From positions 1-11,158 of the forward strand of contig JAJAZJ010000084.1 in the NCBI GenBank assembly GCA_026785795.1: a stretch of 11,158 bases of DNA, read 5' to 3'. Shown here piece by piece: positions 1 through 11,128 of this stretch. Numbering within the stretch: position 1 is the stretch's first letter; every line of letters starts with the position of its first letter. The notes under the pieces were generated by a model that saw only the letters and a list, made by a program, of their open reading frames with translations, ran no database searches and was not told the DNA's origin. The DNA comes from Pseudoxanthomonas sp. GTDB taxonomy: Bacteria > Pseudomonadota > Gammaproteobacteria > Xanthomonadales > Xanthomonadaceae. A program made the translations under genes and the position numbers.

Positions 1-385
1 CCTGGTAACGCTGCAGGTCATCGGGCAGTTCATCGCGTATCGCATCGATGCGCTCACGGGCTTCGGAAGCGGCGATCGCGACATCACGTTCCCAGTCCGA
101 GAACTGGATGAACACTTGCGCGCCATCGGCGTTGGCCGAGGCGTTGATGCTCTTGATGCCGCTCATCGTGGCCACGGCCTCCTCCACCGGCCTGAGCACG
201 GTCCGCTCCACTTCCTCGGGCGTGGACCCGGCATACGGCAGCTGCACGAAGATGAAGGGCGGGGAGATCTCCGGGAAGGCTTCAAGCGGCAGGCGGAAGG
301 CCGCGATCAGGCCGATCGCGACCAGCGACACGAAGAACATGATCGTGGTGACCGGCCGCTTGATGCTGAACTCGGCGACGCTCAT
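1..385 (-). CDS. RND efflux permease, N-terminal part only (runs off the left edge)
   Basis: Reading the complement from the ATG at 385-383 gives 128 codons without a stop, up to the window edge. The product begins MSVAEFSIKRPVTTIMFFVS, the usual opening of the HAE1/AcrB type of RND permease: a short cytoplasmic start, TM1 at about residues 11-31, then the porter-domain start with the family features FPEI (37-40) and YAGSTPEEVE (51-60). RND permeases are proton-driven inner-membrane pumps that take substrates from the periplasm or membrane. The ATG overlaps the TGA of the upstream permease gene by 4 bases (ATGA at 385-382), which indicates translational coupling. It is clearly a different protein from its neighbour, so the operon encodes two permeases, as in MdtB/MdtC-like systems. 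The remaining roughly 900 residues lie outside the window. The family is secure; the substrate cannot be told. Confidence 0.93.
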   Translation of the reverse strand, partial: MSVAEFSIKRPVTTIMFFVSLVAIGLIAAFRLPLEAFPEISPPFIFVQLPYAGSTPEEVERTVLRPVEEAVATMSGIKSINASANADGAQVFIQFSDWERDVAIAASEARERIDAIRDELPDDLQRYQ

Positions 386-3300
386 GCGGGCTCCAGCCCA
401 GCGCCAGCGGCAACGCGGGCCAGGCTTTCACGGTTGCGACGCCCGCGCTCGGCGTAGTCCTCGTCGGGGCGGCGGTCCAGCAGGTCATTGACCACCGGGA
501 TCACCACCAGGGTGAGCAGGGTCGATACCAGCAGGCCGCCGATCACGGTGATGGCCATGGGCGAGCGCACTTCAGAGCCCGGGCCGAAGGCCAGCGCGAG
601 CGGCAGAAAGCCGAACAGCGTGCACAGGGTGGTCATGGCAATCGGGCGCAGGCGCGAGCGTGCGCCCTGCACCAGCGCCTCGCGCTTGGGCACGCCCGCT
701 TCGCGCAGCTGGTTGACCTTATCGATCAGGATGATCGCGCTCTTGGTCACCAGCCCGACCAGCAGGATCAGGCCGATGAACACCACCACCGAGATCGGTG
801 ACCGGGTCAGCAGCAGGGCCAATATCGCGCCCACCAGCGCCAGCGGGATGGTGAACAGGATCACGAACGGGTGCAGCAGCGATTCGAACTGCGAGGCCAT
901 CACCAGGTACACCAGGAAGATGGCCAGGCTGAAGGCAAACAGCAGAGCGCGGATGGATTCGGACAGCTCCTCGCCCTGCCCGCCCATGTGCATGCCGATG
1001 CCGGCACCCAGCGAATCCTCGGCCACCATCTCCTGTACTTCATTGACCGCGGCGCCCAGATCGATGCCGCGCAGGTTGGCCGAGACAATGGCCACGCGGG
1101 TCTGGTTGGCACGGTGGATTTCACTGGGGCCGGTGGTGGACACCACCTCCGCCACTGACTCCAGGGTCACCGGCCGCGAACTGCCCGGATTGACGATCAG
1201 CTGGCGGATGCTGTCCACCGTATCGCGATCGGATTCCCGTGCCCGCACCAGCACGTCGATCTTGCGGTCGCGGAAGCTGTAGCGCGTGGCCACGTCGCCG
1301 CGCACCTTCTTCACCACCACGTCGGCGATCTGGCGCGTGGTCAGGCCCAGCGCACCTGCACGGTCCTGGTCGAAACGGATCTGGATTTCGGGGAAGCCCT
1401 CCTCCACCGTCGACTTCACGTCGGCGTAGTGCGGGTTGTTGCGCAGCATTCCCGCCAGCTTCTGCCCCGCACGCTCGATTCCCTGCATGTCCTGGCCGCG
1501 CAGCTCGATCTCCAGCGGCGCCGCGAAGCTGAAGAGCTCCGGACGCCGGAAATCCGCCTGTGCACCCGGGTGGTCCTTCATGCTGGCGCGCAGTTTTTCG
1601 GTCTGCCTGGCTTCCAGCCTGCGGCTGCCGCCATCGGCCATGACCACGGTGATCTTGCCGATGTTCTCGCCGCTTTCGGTGGGGCTGGCGTCCAGCCGCG
1701 TACCGGTGCCGCTGACGGCATACATCGCGCTGACCCCGTCGTCGCCAGCGTGCTTCTGCTGCAGCTCGCGCACCAGGCGATCGGTGTCGCTCAGCGGCGT
1801 TCCCGGCGGCAGCTTGACCGTCATTTCGTAGCGATCCTGGGCCAGCTGCGGGATCAGGTCGGCGCCCAGCAGGGGAATCGCCAGCAGGGTGAGCACGAAA
1901 GCAATGCCGGAAACGCCCAGCACCAGGCCCGGCTTGCGCAGGGCGCCGGGCAGCAGGTCAAGGTAGCGGGTCTCGGCCCGGCCGTAGAATCTCATCGCCA
2001 GGTCGCTGGCTTTGTGCATCACCGGGGTGACCACCGCGGCGATCCAGCGCCACAGGCGCACGAAGAACCAGCTCACACCTAAGAAAATGGGGCCTGCACA
2101 TGCAGTAAAGAACAGCACCAGTGTCCAGATGGGTAAAACCAATACAAGCCTGATCGGAAGCAATACTAGCCAAACCACCCAACCCAATGCTGACGGCCAC
2201 CGGTCATTGTCAAGGGGCCATCGAAAGAGGGGCGAATGCGACAGAAACGCTGCTTTGAAGCTCCCTAAAAGAAAAAGAGCCGGGAACAGCAAAATAGCCA
2301 TAGGCCACGCGATCCAAGCAGGAATTCCTCGTTCCAGTGGCAGTCTCGTTACGCCAAACACCGTATTGATGGCTGCTGACATCGTCGGCGTGCGCGGATG
2401 TGGTGCCTCTTTCGGGAAGGCCAGCGGCGGGCGACCCTTCAGCGAGCTCAACATCGGGATCAGGGTCATGGCCACGGCCAGCGAAACGGCGATGGCGATG
2501 GCCACGGTCAGGGCCTGGTCGCGGAACAGCTGGCCGGCGATGCCCTCCACGAAGATCAGCGGCAGGAACACGGCAATGGTGGTCAGGGTGGAAGCGACCA
2601 CCGCCATGCTGACTTCGCGGGTGCCCACCACCGCGGACTCGAGTATTCCCAGGCCCCGTTCCCTGGCTTTGGCAATGCTTTCCAGGACCACGATGGAGTC
2701 ATCCACCACCAGGCCGGTAGCCAAGGCCAGGCCGCCCAGCGACATGACGTTGAGGCTCAGGTCCAGCTGGTCCATGAAAAAGAAGGTGGTGATGATGGAG
2801 GCCGGCAGCGACAGCGCCACCACGAACGTGCTCCAGCCATCGCGCAGGAACAGGAAGATGATCAGGATGGCCAGGATAGCGCCGATCAGCGCATCGACCT
2901 TGACGTCGCTGATGGCGTGGTTGATGAACACCGACTGGTCGTCAATGGTGGTCAGCTCCACGTCCGGCGGAATCTGCGACTTGATCTTTTCCAGCTGCGC
3001 CTTGACCGCATCGGCGCTCGCCACGGTGTTGGCGTCGCCTTCCTTGTAGATGGCCAGCTCCACGGCCTCGTCGCCGGCCAGGCGGATGATTCCTTCGCGC
3101 TCCTTGTACCCCTGGGTCACGGTGGCCACGTCGCGCAGCCGCACCGGCACGCCGGCAGCAATTCCGCTGCTGCCGGAAGAGTCATCCTGCAGCGAGGCCG
3201 CGGCGGCCATGGTGGCTGCATCGCCGCTGGAGGCGGCAATGGCCGACATCTGCCGTGCAGCGCTGGATGAATCATTGCCGGCAGCGCCCTGCGTGCTCAC

Positions 3301-4122
3301 CAGCATGTTGCGGATTTCCTCGACCGTGGCGAACTGGTTGACGGTGCGCACCAGGTAGCGCTGCGAGCCCTGCTCCAGGCGACCACCGGAAATATTGATG
3401 TTCTCCTGCTGCAGGCGCTGGATCACGCTTTCGATCGGCAGGTTGAGCTGGGCCAGTTTCTGCTGATCCAGTTCCACCTGGATTTCATCTTCCAGCCCGC
3501 CGCCCACCTTGACCGCGGCGACGCCGGCCACCGGCTCGAGCTTTTTCTTCAGGTCGTCGTTGGCGTAGCGGCGCAGCTCGGTCAATTGACGCACGGCATC
3601 GGCGTCGGTCTTGCCTGCGGTCTTGGCCGATAGTGCAAGGCGCATGATCGGCTGCGTGGACGGGTTGAAGCGCAGCAGCACCGGCGGCTTGGCCTCCAGC
3701 GGAAGCTGCAGCGTTTCCATCTTGTCGCGCACGTCCAGGCTGGCCTGGTCCATGTCGGTGCCCCAGGCGAACTCCAGCACCACGTCGCTCTGGCCGGTGC
3801 GCGAGACGGACTTGAGCTTGCGCAGGTTCTTCACTACGCCCACCGCTTCTTCCACCTGCTCGGAAATCAGGGTCTCGATCTCCGACGGCGCGGCGCCGGT
3901 GTACTCGGTGCGCACAGTCAGGGTGGGATAGCTCAGGTCCGGCAGCAGGTTGACCTTGAGCGAGGTCAGCGAGATCAGGCCGAACAGGATCATGGTGATC
4001 CAGAACATGGCCACGGTGACCCGCCTGCGGATAGAGAATTCAACCAGGCCGCCGCCGCGCAGCAGCGCTGCATCCGCCTGCGGCTGCTTGTCGTTTGCGG
4101 GTTCGCTGGCATGGCCGCTCAT
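382..4122 (-). CDS. RND efflux permease, unusually long (1246 aa), with two internal insertions
   Basis: This is an AcrB/HAE1-like inner-membrane proton/substrate antiporter. Visible landmarks are TM1 at about 38-57, porter domain 60-405, TM2-TM6 at about 407-558, TM7 at about 732-752, second porter region 760-1050 and TM8-TM12 at about 1056-1215. The proton-relay acidic pair is D474-D475 in TM4 (GLVVDDSIVV), and the partner lysine is K1127 in TM10 (VTKSAIILID), so the pump looks functional. Usual family length is about 1020-1060. The surplus comes from an N-terminal extension of about 26 residues, an Ala/Ser/Asp-rich insert at about 278-324, and a large insert at about 565-697 between TM6 and TM7 with extra hydrophobic stretches. 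The start is chosen because its ATG overlaps the TGA of the adaptor gene (ATGA, 4122-4119); the stop overlaps the next permease in the same way. No SD-like sequence is needed if translation is coupled. Substrate unknown. Confidence 0.95.
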   Translation of the reverse strand: MSGHASEPANDKQPQADAALLRGGGLVEFSIRRRVTVAMFWITMILFGLISLTSLKVNLLPDLSYPTLTVRTEYTGAAPSEIETLISEQVEEAVGVVKNLRKLKSVSRTGQSDVVLEFAWGTDMDQASLDVRDKMETLQLPLEAKPPVLLRFNPSTQPIMRLALSAKTAGKTDADAVRQLTELRRYANDDLKKKLEPVAGVAAVKVGGGLEDEIQVELDQQKLAQLNLPIESVIQRLQQENINISGGRLEQGSQRYLVRTVNQFATVEEIRNMLVSTQGAAGNDSSSAARQMSAIAASSGDAATMAAAASLQDDSSGSSGIAAGVPVRLRDVATVTQGYKEREGIIRLAGDEAVELAIYKEGDANTVASADAVKAQLEKIKSQIPPDVELTTIDDQSVFINHAISDVKVDALIGAILAILIIFLFLRDGWSTFVVALSLPASIITTFFFMDQLDLSLNVMSLGGLALATGLVVDDSIVVLESIAKARERGLGILESAVVGTREVSMAVVASTLTTIAVFLPLIFVEGIAGQLFRDQALTVAIAIAVSLAVAMTLIPMLSSLKGRPPLAFPKEAPHPRTPTMSAAINTVFGVTRLPLERGIPAWIAWPMAILLFPALFLLGSFKAAFLSHSPLFRWPLDNDRWPSALGWVVWLVLLPIRLVLVLPIWTLVLFFTACAGPIFLGVSWFFVRLWRWIAAVVTPVMHKASDLAMRFYGRAETRYLDLLPGALRKPGLVLGVSGIAFVLTLLAIPLLGADLIPQLAQDRYEMTVKLPPGTPLSDTDRLVRELQQKHAGDDGVSAMYAVSGTGTRLDASPTESGENIGKITVVMADGGSRRLEARQTEKLRASMKDHPGAQADFRRPELFSFAAPLEIELRGQDMQGIERAGQKLAGMLRNNPHYADVKSTVEEGFPEIQIRFDQDRAGALGLTTRQIADVVVKKVRGDVATRYSFRDRKIDVLVRARESDRDTVDSIRQLIVNPGSSRPVTLESVAEVVSTTGPSEIHRANQTRVAIVSANLRGIDLGAAVNEVQEMVAEDSLGAGIGMHMGGQGEELSESIRALLFAFSLAIFLVYLVMASQFESLLHPFVILFTIPLALVGAILALLLTRSPISVVVFIGLILLVGLVTKSAIILIDKVNQLREAGVPKREALVQGARSRLRPIAMTTLCTLFGFLPLALAFGPGSEVRSPMAITVIGGLLVSTLLTLVVIPVVNDLLDRRPDEDYAERGRRNRESLARVAAGAGLEPA
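2101..2340 (-). other. Low-GC segment inside the RND permease gene (extra hydrophobic loop)
   Basis: Counting bases line by line gives 124 G+C of 240 (about 52%) here, while sampled flanking lines reach about 77% (1921-1980) and 70% (2461-2520). The segment encodes roughly residues 595-674 of the permease. These belong to an expansion of the TM6-TM7 cytoplasmic loop, which is about 40 residues in AcrB and about 170 here. Hydrophobic stretches are visible at about 601-622, 646-664, 665-677 and 678-698. The reading frame stays open throughout, so this is not a disrupting insertion. No flanking direct or inverted repeats were noticed at the borders. Confidence 0.8.
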
Positions 4123-5258
4123 TGCGGCTTACCGGGGGTCTTTGCCTCCGCTGTTGGGGCGGCTTTGGCCGGGGCCGGTTGCCCGATCACTTCGACCTGG
4201 GCACCCTCGCGCAGCGCGACCTTGCCTGCGGTAACCACCTGGTCACCCAGCTTGAGGCCTTCGCGCACTTCAACCCACTCACCATCCATGTAACCGGGCT
4301 TGATCGGAACCCGCGTCGCCTTGCCGTCGCGAACCACGAACACGGTGGGCGCGCCCTCGTCATCCAGCAGCGCGATGCGCGGCACCACCACGGCCTCGGC
4401 ACGCTGGTCGTAGTCGATCTTGATGCGGCCGAACATGCCCGGCTGCAGCAGGCCGCCGCCGTCGAACGTGCTGACCACGCGGAACGTGCCGCTGCCCGCA
4501 TCCACCACCGGGGCGATGCGGGTCACGCTGCCGGTGAAGGCCTGGCCGGGCAGCGCATCCACCGCCAGCTGCACCGGCTGACCCACCTTCAGCGTGGCGA
4601 TCTCACGCTCGGGCACGTTGAGGGTTGCCTCCAGCCGTGAGTCGTCCACGATCCGGAAGATCGGCGTGTTGATCTGGACGAAGTTGCCGGTCTTGATCGA
4701 GCGCGAGGCAATGACCCCGGAAATGGGCGCCTTGACCGTGGCATAGGACAGCTCGAGTTCGGCCATCTTGTGCTGGGCGCGCGCGTTTTCCAGGTCGAAC
4801 CTGATCTGGTCCAGGTCATTGGCGCTGATCATCTGCTGTGACACCAGCTGCTGGGCGCGGCGGTAATTGTTTTCCAGCTTGCTCTTCTGCGCCGAGGCCT
4901 GGGCCACGGACAGGCGCGCCCGATCCGAGTCCAGGCGCACCAGCGCCTGACCCGCGGTCACCGACTGACCTTCCTCGGCCATTACTCCAAGGGCTACGCC
5001 GGAGGTCTTGGCCACCACCTGCGACTCGGCCCGCGGCTCCAGCGCGGCGGTGCCGGTGTAGCTGGCGGCGATGGGACGCTTGGCGGTGGCGAACACCTCC
5101 ACCGGGACCGCGGCGACCTTGTTGGCGTCCTCATCCTTCTTGTCGTCCTTGCCCCCTTTGCAGGCGGCCAGCGACAGCAGGCCCAGTACCAGCAGGGTGT
5201 ACAAGGCTGCTCGCGCAGGAAATGGGCTGGAAGCAAAGCGATTGCTGGACAGGGACAT
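4119..5258 (-). CDS. RND efflux periplasmic adaptor (membrane fusion) lipoprotein
   Basis: This 379-residue AcrA/HlyD-family adaptor bridges the RND permeases and an outer-membrane channel. It has a lipoprotein signal peptide with a hydrophobic core at about 18-30 and lipobox LAAC with C33 as the lipidated cysteine, followed by a charged linker (K/D-rich, 34-47). Next come the first lipoyl half (about 73-110, with EGQSVTAGQALVRLD), a coiled-coil hairpin (about 111-172), the second lipoyl half (about 173-207, VKAPISGVIASR), a beta-barrel (about 208-285) and a membrane-proximal domain (about 286-358). It ends in a short Ala/Pro/Lys tail. It is the first gene of the operon and overlaps the permease start by 4 bases. 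The leader just upstream of the ATG (5259-5287) is C-rich with no purine Shine-Dalgarno sequence, so initiation is probably SD-independent or the start is slightly different. The signal peptide fits the chosen start well. Confidence 0.95.
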   Translation of the reverse strand: MSLSSNRFASSPFPARAALYTLLVLGLLSLAACKGGKDDKKDEDANKVAAVPVEVFATAKRPIAASYTGTAALEPRAESQVVAKTSGVALGVMAEEGQSVTAGQALVRLDSDRARLSVAQASAQKSKLENNYRRAQQLVSQQMISANDLDQIRFDLENARAQHKMAELELSYATVKAPISGVIASRSIKTGNFVQINTPIFRIVDDSRLEATLNVPEREIATLKVGQPVQLAVDALPGQAFTGSVTRIAPVVDAGSGTFRVVSTFDGGGLLQPGMFGRIKIDYDQRAEAVVVPRIALLDDEGAPTVFVVRDGKATRVPIKPGYMDGEWVEVREGLKLGDQVVTAGKVALREGAQVEVIGQPAPAKAAPTAEAKTPGKPQ

Positions 5259-5520: not shown

Positions 5521-5559
5521 TGCCACGCGCCAATCAATCCAGAGAATCCGGATCAATCC

Positions 5560-5958
5560 ATGATGCGACCGCTGCCGCTCGCCGCCTTGCTTGCCCTTGC
5601 CGCCGCCCTCTCGGTTGCTGCCGTTACCGCCCAAGTCGCACCGGGAACGACGGCTGCAGCCGCCCCCGCTGCCTCCGACTTGGCTCCAGCCGCTGCACCC
5701 GTGCTGGTCGGCAATGCCGAAAACGGCCGCATCCTCGCCTATACCTGCCAAGGCTGCCATGGAGTCACTGGATACAAGAACGCCTACCCCAGCTTCCATG
5801 TGCCGCTGATCGGCGGCCAGACGCCGGAATACATCACCCAGGCGCTTAACGAATACAAGGCCGGTAACCGCAAGCACTCGACCATGCAGGCGCAGTCCGA
5901 AAGCTTCTCCGCGCAGGACATCGCTGACCTGTCCGTCTACCTTTCCTCCTTGAAGTAA
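5560..5958 (+). CDS. Small periplasmic c-type cytochrome (c4/c5-like single domain)
   Basis: This 132-residue protein has a Sec signal peptide (hydrophobic core about 6-22, likely cleavage near VTA at 22-24) and an Ala/Pro-rich linker to about residue 48. The class I cytochrome c domain carries the haem-attachment motif CQGCH (C63, C66, H67). M109 is the likely distal haem ligand. The stretch PLIGGQTPEYITQALNEYKAG (83-102) and the ending IADLSVYLSSL are typical of c4-type domains. ATGATG at 5560-5565 gives two adjacent possible starts; upstream only a weak AGAGA (5541-5545) is seen. It lies 7 bases before a second cytochrome and probably shares its transcript. It would carry electrons in the periplasm; the partner oxidase or reductase is not in the window. 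The open frame extends further upstream, but a start there would bury the signal peptide. Confidence 0.92.
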   Translation: MMRPLPLAALLALAAALSVAAVTAQVAPGTTAAAAPAASDLAPAAAPVLVGNAENGRILAYTCQGCHGVTGYKNAYPSFHVPLIGGQTPEYITQALNEYKAGNRKHSTMQAQSESFSAQDIADLSVYLSSLK

Positions 5959-5965
5959 GCCGCCC

Positions 5966-6412
5966 ATGTCGAACGCCGTGCACGCCCCGCGCCTAGCCCT
6001 CGCCCTGCTCGCCGCCCTCGCCCTGGCGGCCTGCTCCCAGAACAAGGACGTCGCTGCCGGCGACCCCGGCAATGCCAGCGGCCAGCACGGCTCCAGCTCT
6101 TCTGCCGGGCTGCCGGGCGGCCGCATCCCCATCGGCGAGCAGTTGGCCAGCGCCAAGGGCAAGGCCACCGGTCAGAGCTGCATCGATTGCCACGGCGCCG
6201 ACGGCAATGCCCCTATCGACCCGACCTACCCCCTGCTCGGCGGCCAGTACGCGGACTACCTGGCCCATTCCCTGCAGGCCTACCGCGCCGGCGATCGCCA
6301 ACACGCGCTGATGACTTCACAGGCCGCGGCGTTGACCGACCAGGAGATCTCCGACTTGGCCGCGTACTTCGGCTCGCGCCCCACCAAGCTGCGCGACCTG
6401 CACGGACTCTGA
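5966..6412 (+). CDS. c-type cytochrome lipoprotein (c4/c5-like single domain)
   Basis: This 148-residue protein has a lipoprotein signal (hydrophobic core about 9-21, lipobox LAAC, C23 lipidated) and a flexible Gly/Ser/Ala linker (about 31-52). The single haem domain has CIDCH (C72, C75, H76) and probable axial M116. The region LLGGQYADYLAHSLQAYRAGD closely echoes the same region of the preceding cytochrome, so the pair probably arose by duplication, or represents the two halves of a dihaem c4 as separate proteins. It starts 7 bases after the first cytochrome and ends 24 bases before the terminator, so the two form a compact operon. Being membrane-tethered, it could hand electrons between a membrane complex and the soluble partner (inference). 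The start at 5966 is supported by the signal peptide; the upstream purines (GAAGTAAG) are only a weak ribosome-binding match. Confidence 0.92.
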   Translation: MSNAVHAPRLALALLAALALAACSQNKDVAAGDPGNASGQHGSSSSAGLPGGRIPIGEQLASAKGKATGQSCIDCHGADGNAPIDPTYPLLGGQYADYLAHSLQAYRAGDRQHALMTSQAAALTDQEISDLAAYFGSRPTKLRDLHGL

Positions 6413-6578: not shown

Positions 6579-8444
6579 TCACGGCAGGTGCCGCGCTGGT
6601 GGATCGCTTTGGCGTACATGACACGCCGGTGGCAAGTGCGTAGACGGCGGGGCAACCGTTGTTGAGGCAGCCAACCGTGGAAACGAGCCTGTCAGCGCGG
6701 CCTGACTGTCAACCCCCACCTGAGGCGAACGGCAATGCACCAACGCCAGCTGCCTCGCTTCAGCATTTGCCAGCGACTGCGCCACAACCACGCCTACTCC
6801 GCGCCCTCGTGGGTCGGAGGCTGTTTCCACCTGCGTGCCGTTGACGCGGATTGCCTGGATATCGCCCATCTCCCAACCCTGGTCATCGAGGACATAGCCC
6901 ATGCCTTTGAGCTCATCGGCAACTTTGCCGGTCAGCGGCGCATAGCTGTCGTAATAAATAGTGTCCTTGGGCAGCAGCTGGTGGTGCACGCGCTGCGCCG
7001 CCACGGCTTTTTCCAGGGGCAGGTCATAGTCGTAGAGGTTGTTCAGCACCTGGAAGATCGAGGTGAAAATCCGCGAACCACCGGGAGTACCCAGCACCAG
7101 GGTGACCTTGCCGTCGCGGGTCACCAGACTCGGGCTCATGGACGACAACATGCGCTTGCCGGGAGCGATGGCGTTGGCGTCACCGCCCACCACGCCGAAG
7201 GCATTCGCCACGCCGGGCTTGGCGCTGAAATCGTCCATCTGGTCATTCAGCAGGAAGCCCGCGCCCCTGATCACCACGCCGCTGCCATAGTCCCAGTTCA
7301 GCGTGTAGGTGTTGCTCACCGCATTGCCCTGGGCATCGACGATGGAGAAATGGGTGGTCTGGTGCCGCTCAAGCCCCGGACGCACCTTCTCGGTAGGCGA
7401 GATGGCGTTGGGGTTGACTTCGGCGGAACGTTGTTTGAGGTAAGCCGGATCGGTCAACTGCTTGACCGGTACTTCGGAAAAAGCCGGATCACCCAGGTAA
7501 TCCGCACGGTCGGCGAACACCCGCTTCTCGATTTCTGCCAGCAGGTGGATGTACTTGGCCGAGTTCAGTCTGACGCCTTTGAAGTCCGCCGCGCGCGCTT
7601 CCTTGATGCCGATCAGCTGGGCCAGCGCGACCCCGCCCGAGCTGGGTGGCGGCGCGGTGTACAGGGTATTGCCACGAAAGCTCACCTGCAGCGGCTCACG
7701 CCACACGACCGTGTAATCCTGCAGGTCCTGCCTGGTGATAAGCCCCTGGTCTGACTGCATCTGCGCCACCAGTAAATCGGCGGTTCTGCCGCTGTAAAAC
7801 TCGTTGACGCCGAGGTCTGCGATGCGCTGCAGGGTCGCGGCCAGCTCCGACTGACGGAAGATTTCCCCGGACTTCATGCTGCCGAAGTAATCACTGAAGT
7901 TGGTGCTTGCATTGAACAATTCCAGCGCGTCTTCACGATACTGGTACTGCGTTTCGGCCACGATAAAGCCGTTTTTCGCGTAGCCCACTGCCGGGGCAAT
8001 CAACTCGCTCCAGGGCAATGTGCCGAACCTATGGTGCGCTTCCCACAGGCCCATCACCGTCCCCGGTACCCCGGCGGCTCGGGCGCCGATCAGGCTCAGG
8101 TTCTCGATCACCTCCCCGTTCTCGTCCAGGTACATGTCACGGGTGGCAGCATTGGGCGCGGTTTCGCGGTAATCGAGGAAGTAGGGCTTGCCGTCGATGT
8201 ACAGGGTCATGAAACCGCCACCGCCGATATTGCCTGCCTCGGGATAGGTCACGGCCAAGGTGAAGGCCGTGGCTACCGCGGCATCCACCGCATTGCCGCC
8301 CTGCTTCAGGATCTGCGCTGCAACTTCCGCGCCATACTGGTCCGGCGCGGCCACCGCACCGCCTTCCAGTGCATCGGCAAAGGCCGGCGAACTGGCGATG
8401 AAGGCGGCCGTCAGCCCCAGCGCCTTGGATAGGAAGAAACGCAT
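6579..8444 (-). CDS. ggt: Gamma-glutamyltransferase (gamma-glutamyltranspeptidase) precursor with extended C-terminus
   Basis: This enzyme cleaves and transfers the gamma-glutamyl group of glutathione and related peptides in the periplasm; the precursor self-cleaves into large and small subunits. From the ATG at 8444 it is 621 residues. The signal peptide ends AFA at 21-23. R93 in YRETAP matches the substrate-binding arginine region. The catalytic, autoprocessing threonine is T363, the first T of TTHFS; the small subunit starts there. The lid loop with LNDQMDDF (399-406), SSMSP (434-438) and the oxyanion GTPGG (452-456) are all present, so it should be active. The family normally ends shortly after a DPRG motif (here 544-547), but this protein continues about 65 residues past VGVVV (550-554) with Pro/Ala/Ser/His-rich sequence. 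The frame also opens 21 codons further upstream (to 8507); I reject that start because it would bury the signal peptide. Confidence 0.95.
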   Translation of the reverse strand: MRFFLSKALGLTAAFIASSPAFADALEGGAVAAPDQYGAEVAAQILKQGGNAVDAAVATAFTLAVTYPEAGNIGGGGFMTLYIDGKPYFLDYRETAPNAATRDMYLDENGEVIENLSLIGARAAGVPGTVMGLWEAHHRFGTLPWSELIAPAVGYAKNGFIVAETQYQYREDALELFNASTNFSDYFGSMKSGEIFRQSELAATLQRIADLGVNEFYSGRTADLLVAQMQSDQGLITRQDLQDYTVVWREPLQVSFRGNTLYTAPPPSSGGVALAQLIGIKEARAADFKGVRLNSAKYIHLLAEIEKRVFADRADYLGDPAFSEVPVKQLTDPAYLKQRSAEVNPNAISPTEKVRPGLERHQTTHFSIVDAQGNAVSNTYTLNWDYGSGVVIRGAGFLLNDQMDDFSAKPGVANAFGVVGGDANAIAPGKRMLSSMSPSLVTRDGKVTLVLGTPGGSRIFTSIFQVLNNLYDYDLPLEKAVAAQRVHHQLLPKDTIYYDSYAPLTGKVADELKGMGYVLDDQGWEMGDIQAIRVNGTQVETASDPRGRGVGVVVAQSLANAEARQLALVHCRSPQVGVDSQAALTGSFPRLAASTTVAPPSTHLPPACHVRQSDPPARHLP

Positions 8445-8477
8445 CAGGTGAGCATCTTTCAATATTGGGCAGGAACA

Positions 8478-8507
8478 ACAGTAGGCGCAGAGATCCGCGC
8501 TTGGCAA
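8478..8507 (-). promoter_or_regulatory. Weak candidate promoter for ggt
   Basis: On the minus strand TTGCCA (8507-8502, five of six -35 bases) is followed after 18 bases by TACTGT (8483-8478, three of six -10 bases). The inferred start near 8471 would leave a leader of about 27 bases to the ATG at 8444. The 72-base gap after the preceding gene has no clear terminator, so read-through from nfuA and its neighbour is also possible. Confidence 0.3.
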
Positions 8508-8516
8508 TCGGCGCGA

Positions 8517-10076
8517 TTAACTGTCGGTCGGGATGGGCTGCCGCTTCACCGGGATATCCGGCGGCGGCTTGCCGCTGGAAGGCTGATCGTTGAGGTTGGG
8601 GTCTGACAGGGAGCAGGCGCCGCCCGCCTGCAGGACGGAGATGATGCACGTGATCTTCTTCGACGTGCCCGGGATGGGCACTTCCACTTCGCGGATCGCG
8701 CGGCGCACCCATTCGGCCAGGAGCGACTCGTTGGGCACCCAGAACTTGTCGAACATGGTGGGCGCGTACGGGAACTGCGGACGTTCCAGCCACTTGCTCG
8801 CGCGGTCGGCGTCGGCACGCTGCTGCTGGGCCGAGCCCGGTGCCCCGGGGTTGCTCGCACCATTGGTGCCTTGATCCGGGATGCGCACGCTGCCATCGGC
8901 GTTGAAAAGTCCCGCACTGGCGCCCGCCCGCCCGGCCGTGTTGCGGGTAGAGGCGCCCCAATCATCGCCGCGCTGTGTGCTGGGCGCGGCGCCGGCGCGA
9001 TTGGCGGACGCAGACCCGGACGCGGTCGCATCAGGCTGGGTACCGCGCGGCGTGCTGGCGGCTGGCGTTGCCGAAGCAGCGCCGCTGGCCGTGGTCGCGC
9101 TGCTGCTGGCGGACGCTGCGCCGCGTTCCGGCAGCGCGATTTCCAGCTCGCGCACGCCGGGGATGGGTGCGCTGAGATTGGGCAGGGCCAGCGCAGGCGC
9201 GGGTAGCTGCATTGGCCTGACCTGGGGCAGCGGGGTCGGAATTTCGCGCATGCGCACTTCAGGCACGGCCACCAACACCTCGGGTACAGCCACCTCGCGC
9301 GGCGGCAATTCGCGCTGCAGTATCTGCACTTCCACCCGGGTGATTTCCCGCTCAGGCACGGACACCTCGCGCGGCGTGATTTCAGGCGGCACGATTTCGC
9401 TTGGCGTGGTCTGCGGAGTACGCGCAATCACCGGCGGCAGGACGAAGTCGGTGGTCGGTGTCTCGGTCACGGTGACCTGGGTGTTCTGCTGGGCCACTTC
9501 GGGTGCGGGCTCGACGGGCTGCTCGGTCGTCGCGGACGCGGCGGCGGCAGGCGCGGCCGCCGGGCTGGGAGCTGCCGAAGCATTGGACGGCGCAGGCTGC
9601 GCGACCGCAGCCGCGTCATCCGGCAGTCCGCCGCCCTGATCTTCCGGGGTGCCCTCCCCGATGAACTCCACCTGCACCCGGCTGCTTTGCTCCGGCGCCG
9701 GCAGGGGCGGCACCCGTACCAGCGCCAGCAGCACCAGCAACAGCAAGAACATCAGGTGCATCAGAAAACTGGTGGCACCGGCGAACCAGCGCAGGCCGCG
9801 TTCCTCGCGCAGCGGTGGCTCGAACCCGTGGTAGAACAGCGCGCGGAACGCCTGCCAGCGATTCAACGCGGCTGCGCGTGGACGCGCTGCCGGCAGCGGG
9901 CGCTGGGCCAGTAGCGCAACCATGGCGTCGGCCTGCTCGCGGCCTACTGTGCCCAACCGTTCCTTCAGGCTACGCAGCCACAGGCCCCAGCCATAGGGCA
10001 AACCGGTCTGGCGCTCCATCACCGGTGCCGGTCTGACGGCCAACAGCGCTGCAATGATGTCGGCGGCTTGCGTCAC
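8517..10076 (-). CDS. TonB/TolA-like single-pass protein with Pro-rich repetitive periplasmic region
   Basis: This 519-residue protein begins at GTG, 13 bases after the nfuA stop. Residues 1-99 are cytoplasmic and basic (R/A-rich, no recognised domain). There is one TM at about 100-122 (LMHLMFLLLLVLLALV). A long periplasmic part follows: Ala/Pro-rich (150-195), then Val/Glu/Arg/Pro motifs repeated as PREV, PERE, PPREV, VPEV and VPEV (235-275), then Ala/Ser/Gly-rich low complexity (320-420). A compact C-terminal domain lies at about 427-492, with a cysteine pair C477 and C488 (CIISVLQAGGAC) suited to a disulfide. The layout resembles TonB or TolA, but the cytoplasmic part is far longer than TonB's. 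No ExbB/ExbD or TolQ/R is nearby. Proteins of this sort are annotated 'transmembrane repetitive protein' in xanthomonads (from memory); the function is unknown. No clear SD precedes the GTG; the alternative ATG at residue 20 is possible. Confidence 0.85.
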   Translation of the reverse strand: MTQAADIIAALLAVRPAPVMERQTGLPYGWGLWLRSLKERLGTVGREQADAMVALLAQRPLPAARPRAAALNRWQAFRALFYHGFEPPLREERGLRWFAGATSFLMHLMFLLLLVLLALVRVPPLPAPEQSSRVQVEFIGEGTPEDQGGGLPDDAAAVAQPAPSNASAAPSPAAAPAAAASATTEQPVEPAPEVAQQNTQVTVTETPTTDFVLPPVIARTPQTTPSEIVPPEITPREVSVPEREITRVEVQILQRELPPREVAVPEVLVAVPEVRMREIPTPLPQVRPMQLPAPALALPNLSAPIPGVRELEIALPERGAASASSSATTASGAASATPAASTPRGTQPDATASGSASANRAGAAPSTQRGDDWGASTRNTAGRAGASAGLFNADGSVRIPDQGTNGASNPGAPGSAQQQRADADRASKWLERPQFPYAPTMFDKFWVPNESLLAEWVRRAIREVEVPIPGTSKKITCIISVLQAGGACSLSDPNLNDQPSSGKPPPDIPVKRQPIPTDS

Positions 10077-10089
10077 CGGGGAAGCGGAA

Positions 10090-10686
10090 TCAGGCCGCGT
10101 TGTCGCGCGGGATGTAAGGTGCGTCGCCGGTGTCGTGGTCGGTGATGTCGCGCACGGCGGTCACGCCGGGCACGCGCGCCATCAAGGTGGTCTGGATCCC
10201 CTGCTTCAGGGTGACGTCGGCCATGCCGCAGCCATTGCAGCCGCCACCGAAGCGCAGCAGCACCAGGCCATCGCTGTCCACCTGCTCCACCGCCACCCGG
10301 CCCTTGTGCTGGGCCAGCTGCGGATTGATCTCGTTGTCCACCACCCAGCGCACCCGCTCCACCAGCGATGCGGATTCGGCGGGCGCCATTCCCTTGATCT
10401 TCGGTGCCTTGATGGTCAGCTGGCTGCCTGCGCCCTCGGTGACGTAATCGATCTGCGCGCCGTCCAGCCAGGCCACGCTGTGGGCGTCGACGTAGAGGGT
10501 GAAACCATCGCAATCCATTGCCCACTCATCGCCCAGCAAATCGCGGGGTTCAGCGAATTCAAGCCGCGCATCGGCGCGAACCGTACCCGGATCCACCGCG
10601 CACAGGCGCACGCCCATGCCGGGCAGGGCCTCGCGCTCGATCAACTTGCGGAAATGGGTCTGGGCGCTGTCTGAAATCTGGATCAT
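10090..10686 (-). CDS. nfuA: NfuA, Fe-S cluster carrier/biogenesis protein
   Basis: This 198-residue cytoplasmic protein (E. coli NfuA is 191) has an N-terminal degenerate A-type-like domain (about 1-95) used for target recognition and a C-terminal Nfu domain (about 105-185). The cluster-binding CNGC motif, C150 and C153, binds a [4Fe-4S] cluster across a dimer and delivers it to client enzymes, especially under oxidative stress or iron limitation (family knowledge). The N-terminal domain lacks the three conserved A-type cysteines (only C29 and C59 seen), as expected for NfuA. The ATG at 10686 begins [15 protein letters not shown], the normal family start. TAGAAT lies just 6 bases upstream, which would place transcription start at the ATG itself. 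The TonB/TolA-like gene follows 13 bases downstream, suggesting one transcript. Confidence 0.96.
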
Positions 10687-10692
10687 GCGGCT

Positions 10693-10698
10693 ATTCTA
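10693..10698 (-). promoter_or_regulatory. Candidate -10 (TAGAAT) of nfuA, possibly making a leaderless mRNA
   Basis: TAGAAT on the minus strand matches five of six -10 bases and ends 6 bases before the nfuA ATG. If it is used, +1 falls on the A of the ATG at 10686. No Shine-Dalgarno sequence is visible between it and the ATG (AGCCGC), which fits a leaderless start. No good -35 is seen about 17 bases upstream. Confidence 0.4.
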
Positions 10699-10770
10699 TC
10701 CACCTGCGGCGCCACCAGCCCAGACCTGGCCATTACGCTGCGCGTGTTACGTTCAGGCTGCATCCTCGCC

Positions 10771-10775
10771 AAGGA
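10771..10775 (+). promoter_or_regulatory. Ribosome-binding site of phhB
   Basis: AAGGA lies 8 bases before the ATG at 10784. This is the clearest Shine-Dalgarno sequence in the window and fixes the phhB start; most other starts here lack one. Confidence 0.75.
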
Positions 10776-10783
10776 AAACCATC

Positions 10784-11128
10784 ATGTCCGACCTTATTCC
10801 GCTGGTCCAGGCCCACTGTCTTCCGCTCAAGGGCAGCGAGCACAAGCTCACCCAGGCCCGGGTGGCCGAATTGATTGTCCAGCTCGAGGGCTGGGCGCTG
10901 GTGGAAGACGGTCGCGCGATCAGCAAGACTTTCGGCTTCGACAATTACTTCCAGACCATGGCATTCGTGAACGCGCTGGCCTACGTGGCCCACGGCGAAG
11001 ACCACCATCCTGACCTAGGCGTGCATTACAACCGCGCCGTGGTGCGTTTCTCCACCCACGACGTGGGTGGCCTGAGCGAGAATGATTTCATCTGCGCGGC
11101 CAAGGCCGATGCGCTGGTGTCGCAGTGA
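10784..11128 (+). CDS. phhB: Pterin-4a-carbinolamine dehydratase
   Basis: This 114-residue cytoplasmic enzyme, the usual family size, dehydrates 4a-hydroxytetrahydrobiopterin to quinonoid dihydropterin, recycling the cofactor after aromatic amino acid hydroxylation (phenylalanine hydroxylase PhhA in bacteria). The signature is complete: H70, then H74-H75-P76-D77, Y82, and [10 protein letters not shown] at 90-99 with H92. The early part has the family features EGWALVE (35-41) and [21 protein letters not shown] (46-66). The AAGGA ribosome-binding site 8 bases before the ATG supports the start. It is divergent from nfuA across 97 bases; no phhA gene is visible in the window. The last 30 bases (11129-11158) show nothing assignable. 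Confidence 0.96.

Follow-up and report, generated by a model that had tools for sequence, protein, structure and literature searches.

The locus described here raises the question of what the long hydrophobic segment between transmembrane helices TM6 and TM7 of an RND permease is, how it came to be there, and whether it is likely to matter to the pump. The window (the whole 11,158-nucleotide stretch of Pseudoxanthomonas sp. DNA that was analyzed) comes from a genome of 2.0 Mb in 359 contigs. It contains, on the minus strand, a periplasmic adaptor gene of the MFP type (positions 4119 to 5258; TIGR01730, 282 bits against a cut-off of 94.9), followed by and overlapping with the gene for permease 1 (382 to 4122; 1246 residues; Pfam ACR_tran, 812 bits against a cut-off of 28), the stop codon of which forms an ATGA overlap with the start of a gene for permease 2 (1 to 385) that is truncated by the contig end. 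In Pseudoxanthomonas sacheonensis DSM 19373 the operon is complete and consists of the adaptor, permease 1 (1254 residues), permease 2 (1038 residues), and a 477-residue open reading frame, which we take for the outer-membrane factor and which had no match in the NCBIfam search. Permease 1 of the window is the first gene of a two-permease RND operon, with two adjacent, different permease genes and one adaptor.

This overlapping order of adaptor, permease 1, and permease 2 is the same as in MdtABC, MuxABC-OpmB, and SmeIJK, the last of which is described as having two transporters (PMC4229105) and is likened to the window operon in this make-up. For both permeases, MdtB was the top match among solved structures by sequence. 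However, permease 1 differs from the Mdt and Mux systems in that it fell far below the NCBIfam equivalog cut-offs, reaching 425.4 of 1584 bits for MdtB/MuxB and 444.9 of 1774 bits for MdtC/MuxC, and in that the insert described below is found in permease 1 only.

Residues D474, D475, and K1127 of permease 1 were invariant in a 22-row alignment and are likely to be the counterparts of D407, D408, and K940 of AcrB, so that the relay residues would be intact. The AcrB residues are important in the proton relay (PMC8277102). A Foldseek search with a near-full model of permease 1 gave a probability of 1.00 to OqxB, MtrD, AdeJ, and MdtB, as expected of an RND fold, with a TM-score by query length of about 0.57 from a weak input model.

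The remainder of the window holds two small tandem cytochrome c genes that diverge from the pump operon (5536 to 6412, plus strand), a gamma-glutamyltranspeptidase gene (6579 to 8507, minus strand), a gene for a 519-residue protein (8517 to 10076, minus strand) in which a single hydrophobic segment and an extended stretch rich in Pro, Glu, and Arg were recognized by eye and which had no Pfam match, and, at 10090 to 11128, genes for an NfuA-like protein with Fe-S_biosyn and NifU domains (minus strand) and a pterin-4a-carbinolamine dehydratase (plus strand). Except for the 519-residue protein, these assignments are from Pfam.

An earlier note on this DNA had claimed that about 170 residues, including a large hydrophobic insert, lie between TM6 and TM7 of permease 1, and this was borne out, with the insert placed at residues ~577 to 680. 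The alignment of permease 1 to Pfam and NCBIfam models and to solved RND pumps falls into three stretches; it breaks off at residue ~559 to 566 and resumes at ~703 to 711 or later, and most of the segment 2025 to 2430 (residues 565 to 699) is unaligned to these models and structures. The centers of the Kyte-Doolittle peaks, at residues 608 to 620 (maximum 2.05), 651 to 681 (maximum 2.47), and 688 to 689 (1.49), fall close to the hydrophobic stretches that had been named. The loop as we measured it, from P556 to L735, is 180 residues long (1918 to 2457, minus strand), and in the short forms of the protein it is 102 to 103 residues long. The AcrB loop, in contrast to the ~170 residues and hydrophobic two-unit insert found here, has about 40 residues, a figure that we take over from the earlier note. 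The excess over AcrB thus holds in part: the loop is unusual by an extra 70 to 77 residues, but the rest of the difference is common to the subfamily, in which even the short loop has 102 to 103 residues.

The distribution of loop lengths was evaluated in several ways. Among 186 full-length relatives, a set biased to long forms because the queries were long, the P556-L735 length was bimodal: 102 to 103 residues in 166 and 172 to 180 residues in 20, with nothing between. Outside this count are 13 of 198 database proteins (<1100 residues), including one (P0013) with a long loop. A search with a profile of the insert, in which 11 candidates were scored per genome, gave a full insert in 8 of 395 sampled genomes of the family and a partial match in 5 others. 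Searches with the full-length protein agreed, finding the long form in 2 of 38 genomes of the genus of the window (with no match in another 2 of the 38), in 3 of 11 genomes of genus g27, and in 3 of 8 of genus g39. Therefore the insert is not the norm of the family, being missing from most of the relatives sampled.

In genera g55 and g40, which gave the five partial matches, the RND loop is intermediate in length, and inspection by eye shows one unit in it, related to unit 2 (see below). In G522 and G649, which belong to a different family of the order, the loop contains two hydrophobic units of the WPxx type. Measured from a PxLx to an LGxDLIP motif, on which scale long forms have ~190 to 196 residues (motif subtracted), these two loops are 196 residues (equal to the long form) and 222 residues (the longest measured), respectively. 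On this scale, a search of the order gave 30 loci, of which 29 could be measured; 28 of them had 102 to 134 residues, and the 29th was that of G522. The insert is thus optional and patchily distributed, with single-unit and other arrangements in other genera.

A local alignment of 20 long loops indicated that the insert is built of two related Pro/Trp/Arg-rich units, the boundaries of which were drawn by eye. In unit 1 (residues 591 to 630; 2233 to 2352, minus strand) P595, P614, and G620 are invariant in all 20, as are P636, L654, R658, W666, and P678 in unit 2 (residues 631 to 682; 2077 to 2232, minus strand); P664 (19 of 20) and W635 and P656 (18 of 20 each) are nearly fixed. Comparison of the two units by hhalign gave a probability of 89 (P 2e-6), and 87 (P 4e-6) when repeated with controls, over an aligned part of 24 to 25 columns. 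The controls, in which 11 native transmembrane segments of the same proteins were compared with both units (22 comparisons), gave probabilities of at most 5.2.

The structure of the loop was predicted with AlphaFold2 from a fragment of 236 residues (20 alignment rows, mean pLDDT 83.5). The model contains helices at residues 529 to 562 (TM6; 2437 to 2538, minus strand), 579 to 592, 602 to 627, 644 to 729, and 731 to 756 (TM7; 1855 to 1932, minus strand). The earlier note had named a disordered cytoplasmic loop as the opposite outcome; the loop is instead predicted to be helical, with block means of pLDDT of 81 to 95 over residues 579 to 729 in the fragment model. A near-full model was poorer (mean pLDDT 66) and agreed on the loop helices, apart from a break at residue 612. 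A structure search with the fragment model gave no informative structural match. Compared with MdtB and OqxB, permease 1 also has ~44 additional residues, rich in Ser and Ala, in its periplasmic part (residues ~280 to 323; 3154 to 3285, minus strand), and the segment 275 to 330 that contains this second insertion is 48 to 57 residues long in 107 relatives.

The hydrophobic moment was 0.40 to 0.51 in 18-residue windows starting at residues 676 to 712, compared to 0.05 to 0.28 for windows inside the insert. The amphipathic helix that had been expected at about 700 to 730 does cover these residues, but it begins earlier, and we place it at residues 676 to 729 (1936 to 2097, minus strand), which are helical in both models. 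It is likely the counterpart of α6-7 (Iα) of AcrB. Permease 1 and the AcrB/HAE-1 permeases are accordingly alike in family, in fold, in their likely proton-relay residues, and in having an amphipathic helix at the same place.

Upstream of this helix, the models add a predicted helix at residues 602 to 627 (2242 to 2319, minus strand) and another at 644 to 674 (2101 to 2193, minus strand), the latter present in both models as the first part of the helix that reaches residue 729. Among the 50 structure-aligner matches listed, 18 end at residues 672 to 675 and 8 begin at 675, which suggests a bend in the long helix at 672 to 675. P614, which lies in the first added helix, is close to the break at 612 in the larger model, but no break is present there in the better fragment model. 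One reading of the models is a hairpin of two crossings, 602 to 627 and 644 to 674, leading into the amphipathic helix. The linker of residues 623 to 646 contains on average 3.6 Lys plus Arg and 0.35 Asp plus Glu, and is net positive in 19 of the 20 long forms. Because such a positive linker is expected on the cytoplasmic side and is ill-suited to a periplasmic loop between crossings, each unit may instead be re-entrant. Therefore, of the models that had been put forward (two or four added helices, or re-entrant segments), two added helices remain live given the modeled helices 602 to 627 and 644 to 729, whereas the charge of the linker argues for re-entrant units. RND proteins with 13 or 14 transmembrane helices are mentioned, in general terms, in PMC8277102.

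The relationship between the loop and the rest of the protein was evaluated with the flanking sequence. A database protein, P0008, was 99.2% identical to the window protein over 959 flank positions, and yet it has a short loop. Within the set, the nearest flank relative was a short form for 7 of the 20 long rows, this pair among them. In a tree made from the flanks only (959 columns; 89 rows, namely 20 long forms and 69 short forms thinned by identity from 166 after rows with >20% gaps had been dropped; quick method, LG+G4, no bootstrap), loop type changes 10 times, and at least 8 of the changes are forced by starred branches. The arrangement of the long forms as one clade was rejected on this tree (p-AU 4e-47).

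Three pairs of loci were compared as DNA. P. sacheonensis and a short-loop relative, G385 (L137 and L131), share 97.1 and 93.4% identity in the two stretches that precede the loop. The loop itself has been replaced. Past it, identity rises stepwise through 63, 83, 85, and 90% up to residue 870, to 98.5% at residues 871 to 1000, and is 94.7% beyond. Genomes G053 and G100 (L133 and L132) are 88 to 90% identical over ~18 kb in two blocks, for which the loop (~357 bp vs. 135 bp) is the sole break, with another unaligned gap near the start of the stretch compared. The third pair (L135 and L134) is 84 to 86% identical before the loop, 55 and 66% at residues 681 to 740, and 84 to 89% after it, with two more gaps upstream. 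This pattern, a local loss of identity between genes that otherwise nearly match, is that of mosaic alleles. A small partner gene that co-varies with the insert, as had been proposed, was not found by DNA collinearity of these three pairs, of which L137/L131 and L135/L134 have further unaligned gaps.

The GC content at third codon positions (GC3) of the window gene is 0.55 at codons 577 to 680, compared to 0.87 at codons 301 to 576, 0.91 at 681 to 735, and 0.86 to 0.91 across other parts; the 16 codons 561 to 576 have a value of 0.69, and the lowest 104-codon window outside codons 560 to 700 has 0.79. The GC3 drop and the absence of the segment from P0008 delimit the exchanged cassette at codons ~577 to 680 (2083 to 2394, minus strand). 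The insert GC3 in seven other long genes was 0.73 to 0.97, and so the low GC marks the import into the window gene and not the insert as such. Judged from GC3 together with protein identity, the insert of the window lineage was probably imported from lower-GC DNA; the closest inserts that we found are ~55% identical to it. The short loops have a conserved sequence of their own and are not long loops minus a piece. Because P0008 has a short loop, loop type changes at least 10 times in the tree, DNA identity breaks at the loop, and the insert of the window differs in GC3, we interpret the loop as a cassette that has repeatedly been exchanged, long against short, by homologous recombination. The nearest parallel for the recombination is that of the mosaic mtr alleles of Neisseria gonorrhoeae, in which an RND operon was altered by acquisition from other species (PMC6083905). 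The difference is that here the exchanged piece brings in or takes out an entire membrane module, and does so at a single site, repeatedly, across several genera.

The ratio dN/dS of the insert was 0.24 to 0.69 in five pairs of long forms, compared to 0.035 to 0.17 in the flanks; in the pair that includes the window gene, synonymous change was saturated. In five pairs of short forms the loop had values of 0.11 to 0.62. These figures indicate that the loop is constrained but changes fast in both long and short forms, and weak constraint is another possible reading of the high rate in the insert. It is possible, if on balance unlikely, that the insert is a linker expansion, tolerated and close to neutral, in which hydrophobic units are gained and lost, that it has no specific role, and that recombination moved it only through its homologous flanks. 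The greater rate of insert and neighboring loop than of the flanks in both forms would fit this explanation, as would the range of loop lengths across the order, where the measured segment runs from 102 to 222 residues. It is opposed by the sharp separation of two lengths in the homologue set, by dN/dS values below 1 in all five long pairs, and by the eight positions that are invariant in 20 of 20 long forms, which include R658, in a hydrophobic stretch, and four prolines. The insert is more than a chance expansion, we argue, because of these eight residues and dN/dS values, and because it recurs in G053 and G135. The same recurrence bears on whether the insert of the window is a chimeric assembly from a mixed sample. 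The fragmentation of the genome into 359 contigs would fit this, as would the absence of the insert from P0008, the closest sequence found, but we regard a chimera as barely credible: the insert is in frame and has the family-invariant positions, and the same feature is present in P. sacheonensis and in G053 and G135, the genomes of which are listed as one contig each.

Two further explanations concern the switching itself. An external agent that binds the loop or the transmembrane surface, such as a bacteriocin, a phage product, or an inhibitor, might select for loop switching as in the diversification of receptors, and repeated switching with conserved flanks and a fast loop does resemble the diversified parts of receptors. 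We consider this improbable, since by RND topology the loop should lie at the cytoplasm or the inner leaflet and not outside, and dN/dS stayed at or below 1 in every pair examined, five long and five short. Alternatively, the long loop may be ancestral and have been lost many times, in which case exchange is not needed; parsimony counts cannot separate gain from loss, and units like these are also present outside the family, in G522 and G649. This too seems very improbable to us, given that the short loops are conserved in a sequence of their own rather than being trimmed long ones, that low GC3 is confined to the insert of the window, and that in the P. sacheonensis and G385 pair the lowered identity runs past the loop to residue ~870.

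The explanation that we favor, by a little more than even confidence, is that the ~100 residues of the insert form an optional helical cassette within the membrane, added as a hairpin that would tune coupling or substrate preference in permease 1 of a two-permease RND pump. We found neither functional data on the long or the short form nor, in our literature search, a description of this insert; most subscription papers lay outside the scope of the search, so that absence from print is not implied. AcrB with Gly-Ser in place of α6-7 no longer conferred drug resistance, and the study's authors expect the helix to act as a pivot (PMC5546932); the two transmembrane halves that are joined by an amphipathic helix move as rigid bodies (PMC8277102). 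A module fused to this helix would most simply act on the same step. The cassette would add a hairpin of two crossings or two re-entrant elements, which may anchor the pivot helix in the inner leaflet and touch transmembrane helices and lipid. By analogy with AcrZ on AcrB, this anchoring might alter coupling or substrate preference allosterically, and the pump would have two settings, a long and a short loop, between which recombination toggles.

AcrZ, together with lipid, modulates AcrB allosterically, and interaction was lost when its bend proline was replaced by alanine (PMC7267776). The likeness that we see is in the way of working only: AcrZ has a proline-bent hydrophobic helix at the transmembrane domain (PMC7267776), and P614 is present in 20 of 20 long forms here. 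The difference is that AcrZ is a separate protein in E. coli, whereas the module described here is built into the permease.

A broader reading, which we put forward tentatively and think somewhat short of an even chance, is that RND pumps of the order carry a swappable hinge cassette of Pro/Trp/Arg membrane units, variable in number and arrangement, that homologous recombination passes between species and that may reset coupling or the response to lipid or substrate, like a built-in AcrZ. The TM6-TM7 linker connects two rigid halves that move relative to each other as protons are coupled to drug export. A natural, exchanged insertion at this place provides matched pairs of pumps that differ mainly in the module, and makes the role of the helix directly testable. 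It suggests that RND pumps can evolve by the swap of a membrane module, beyond point changes or wider mosaics.
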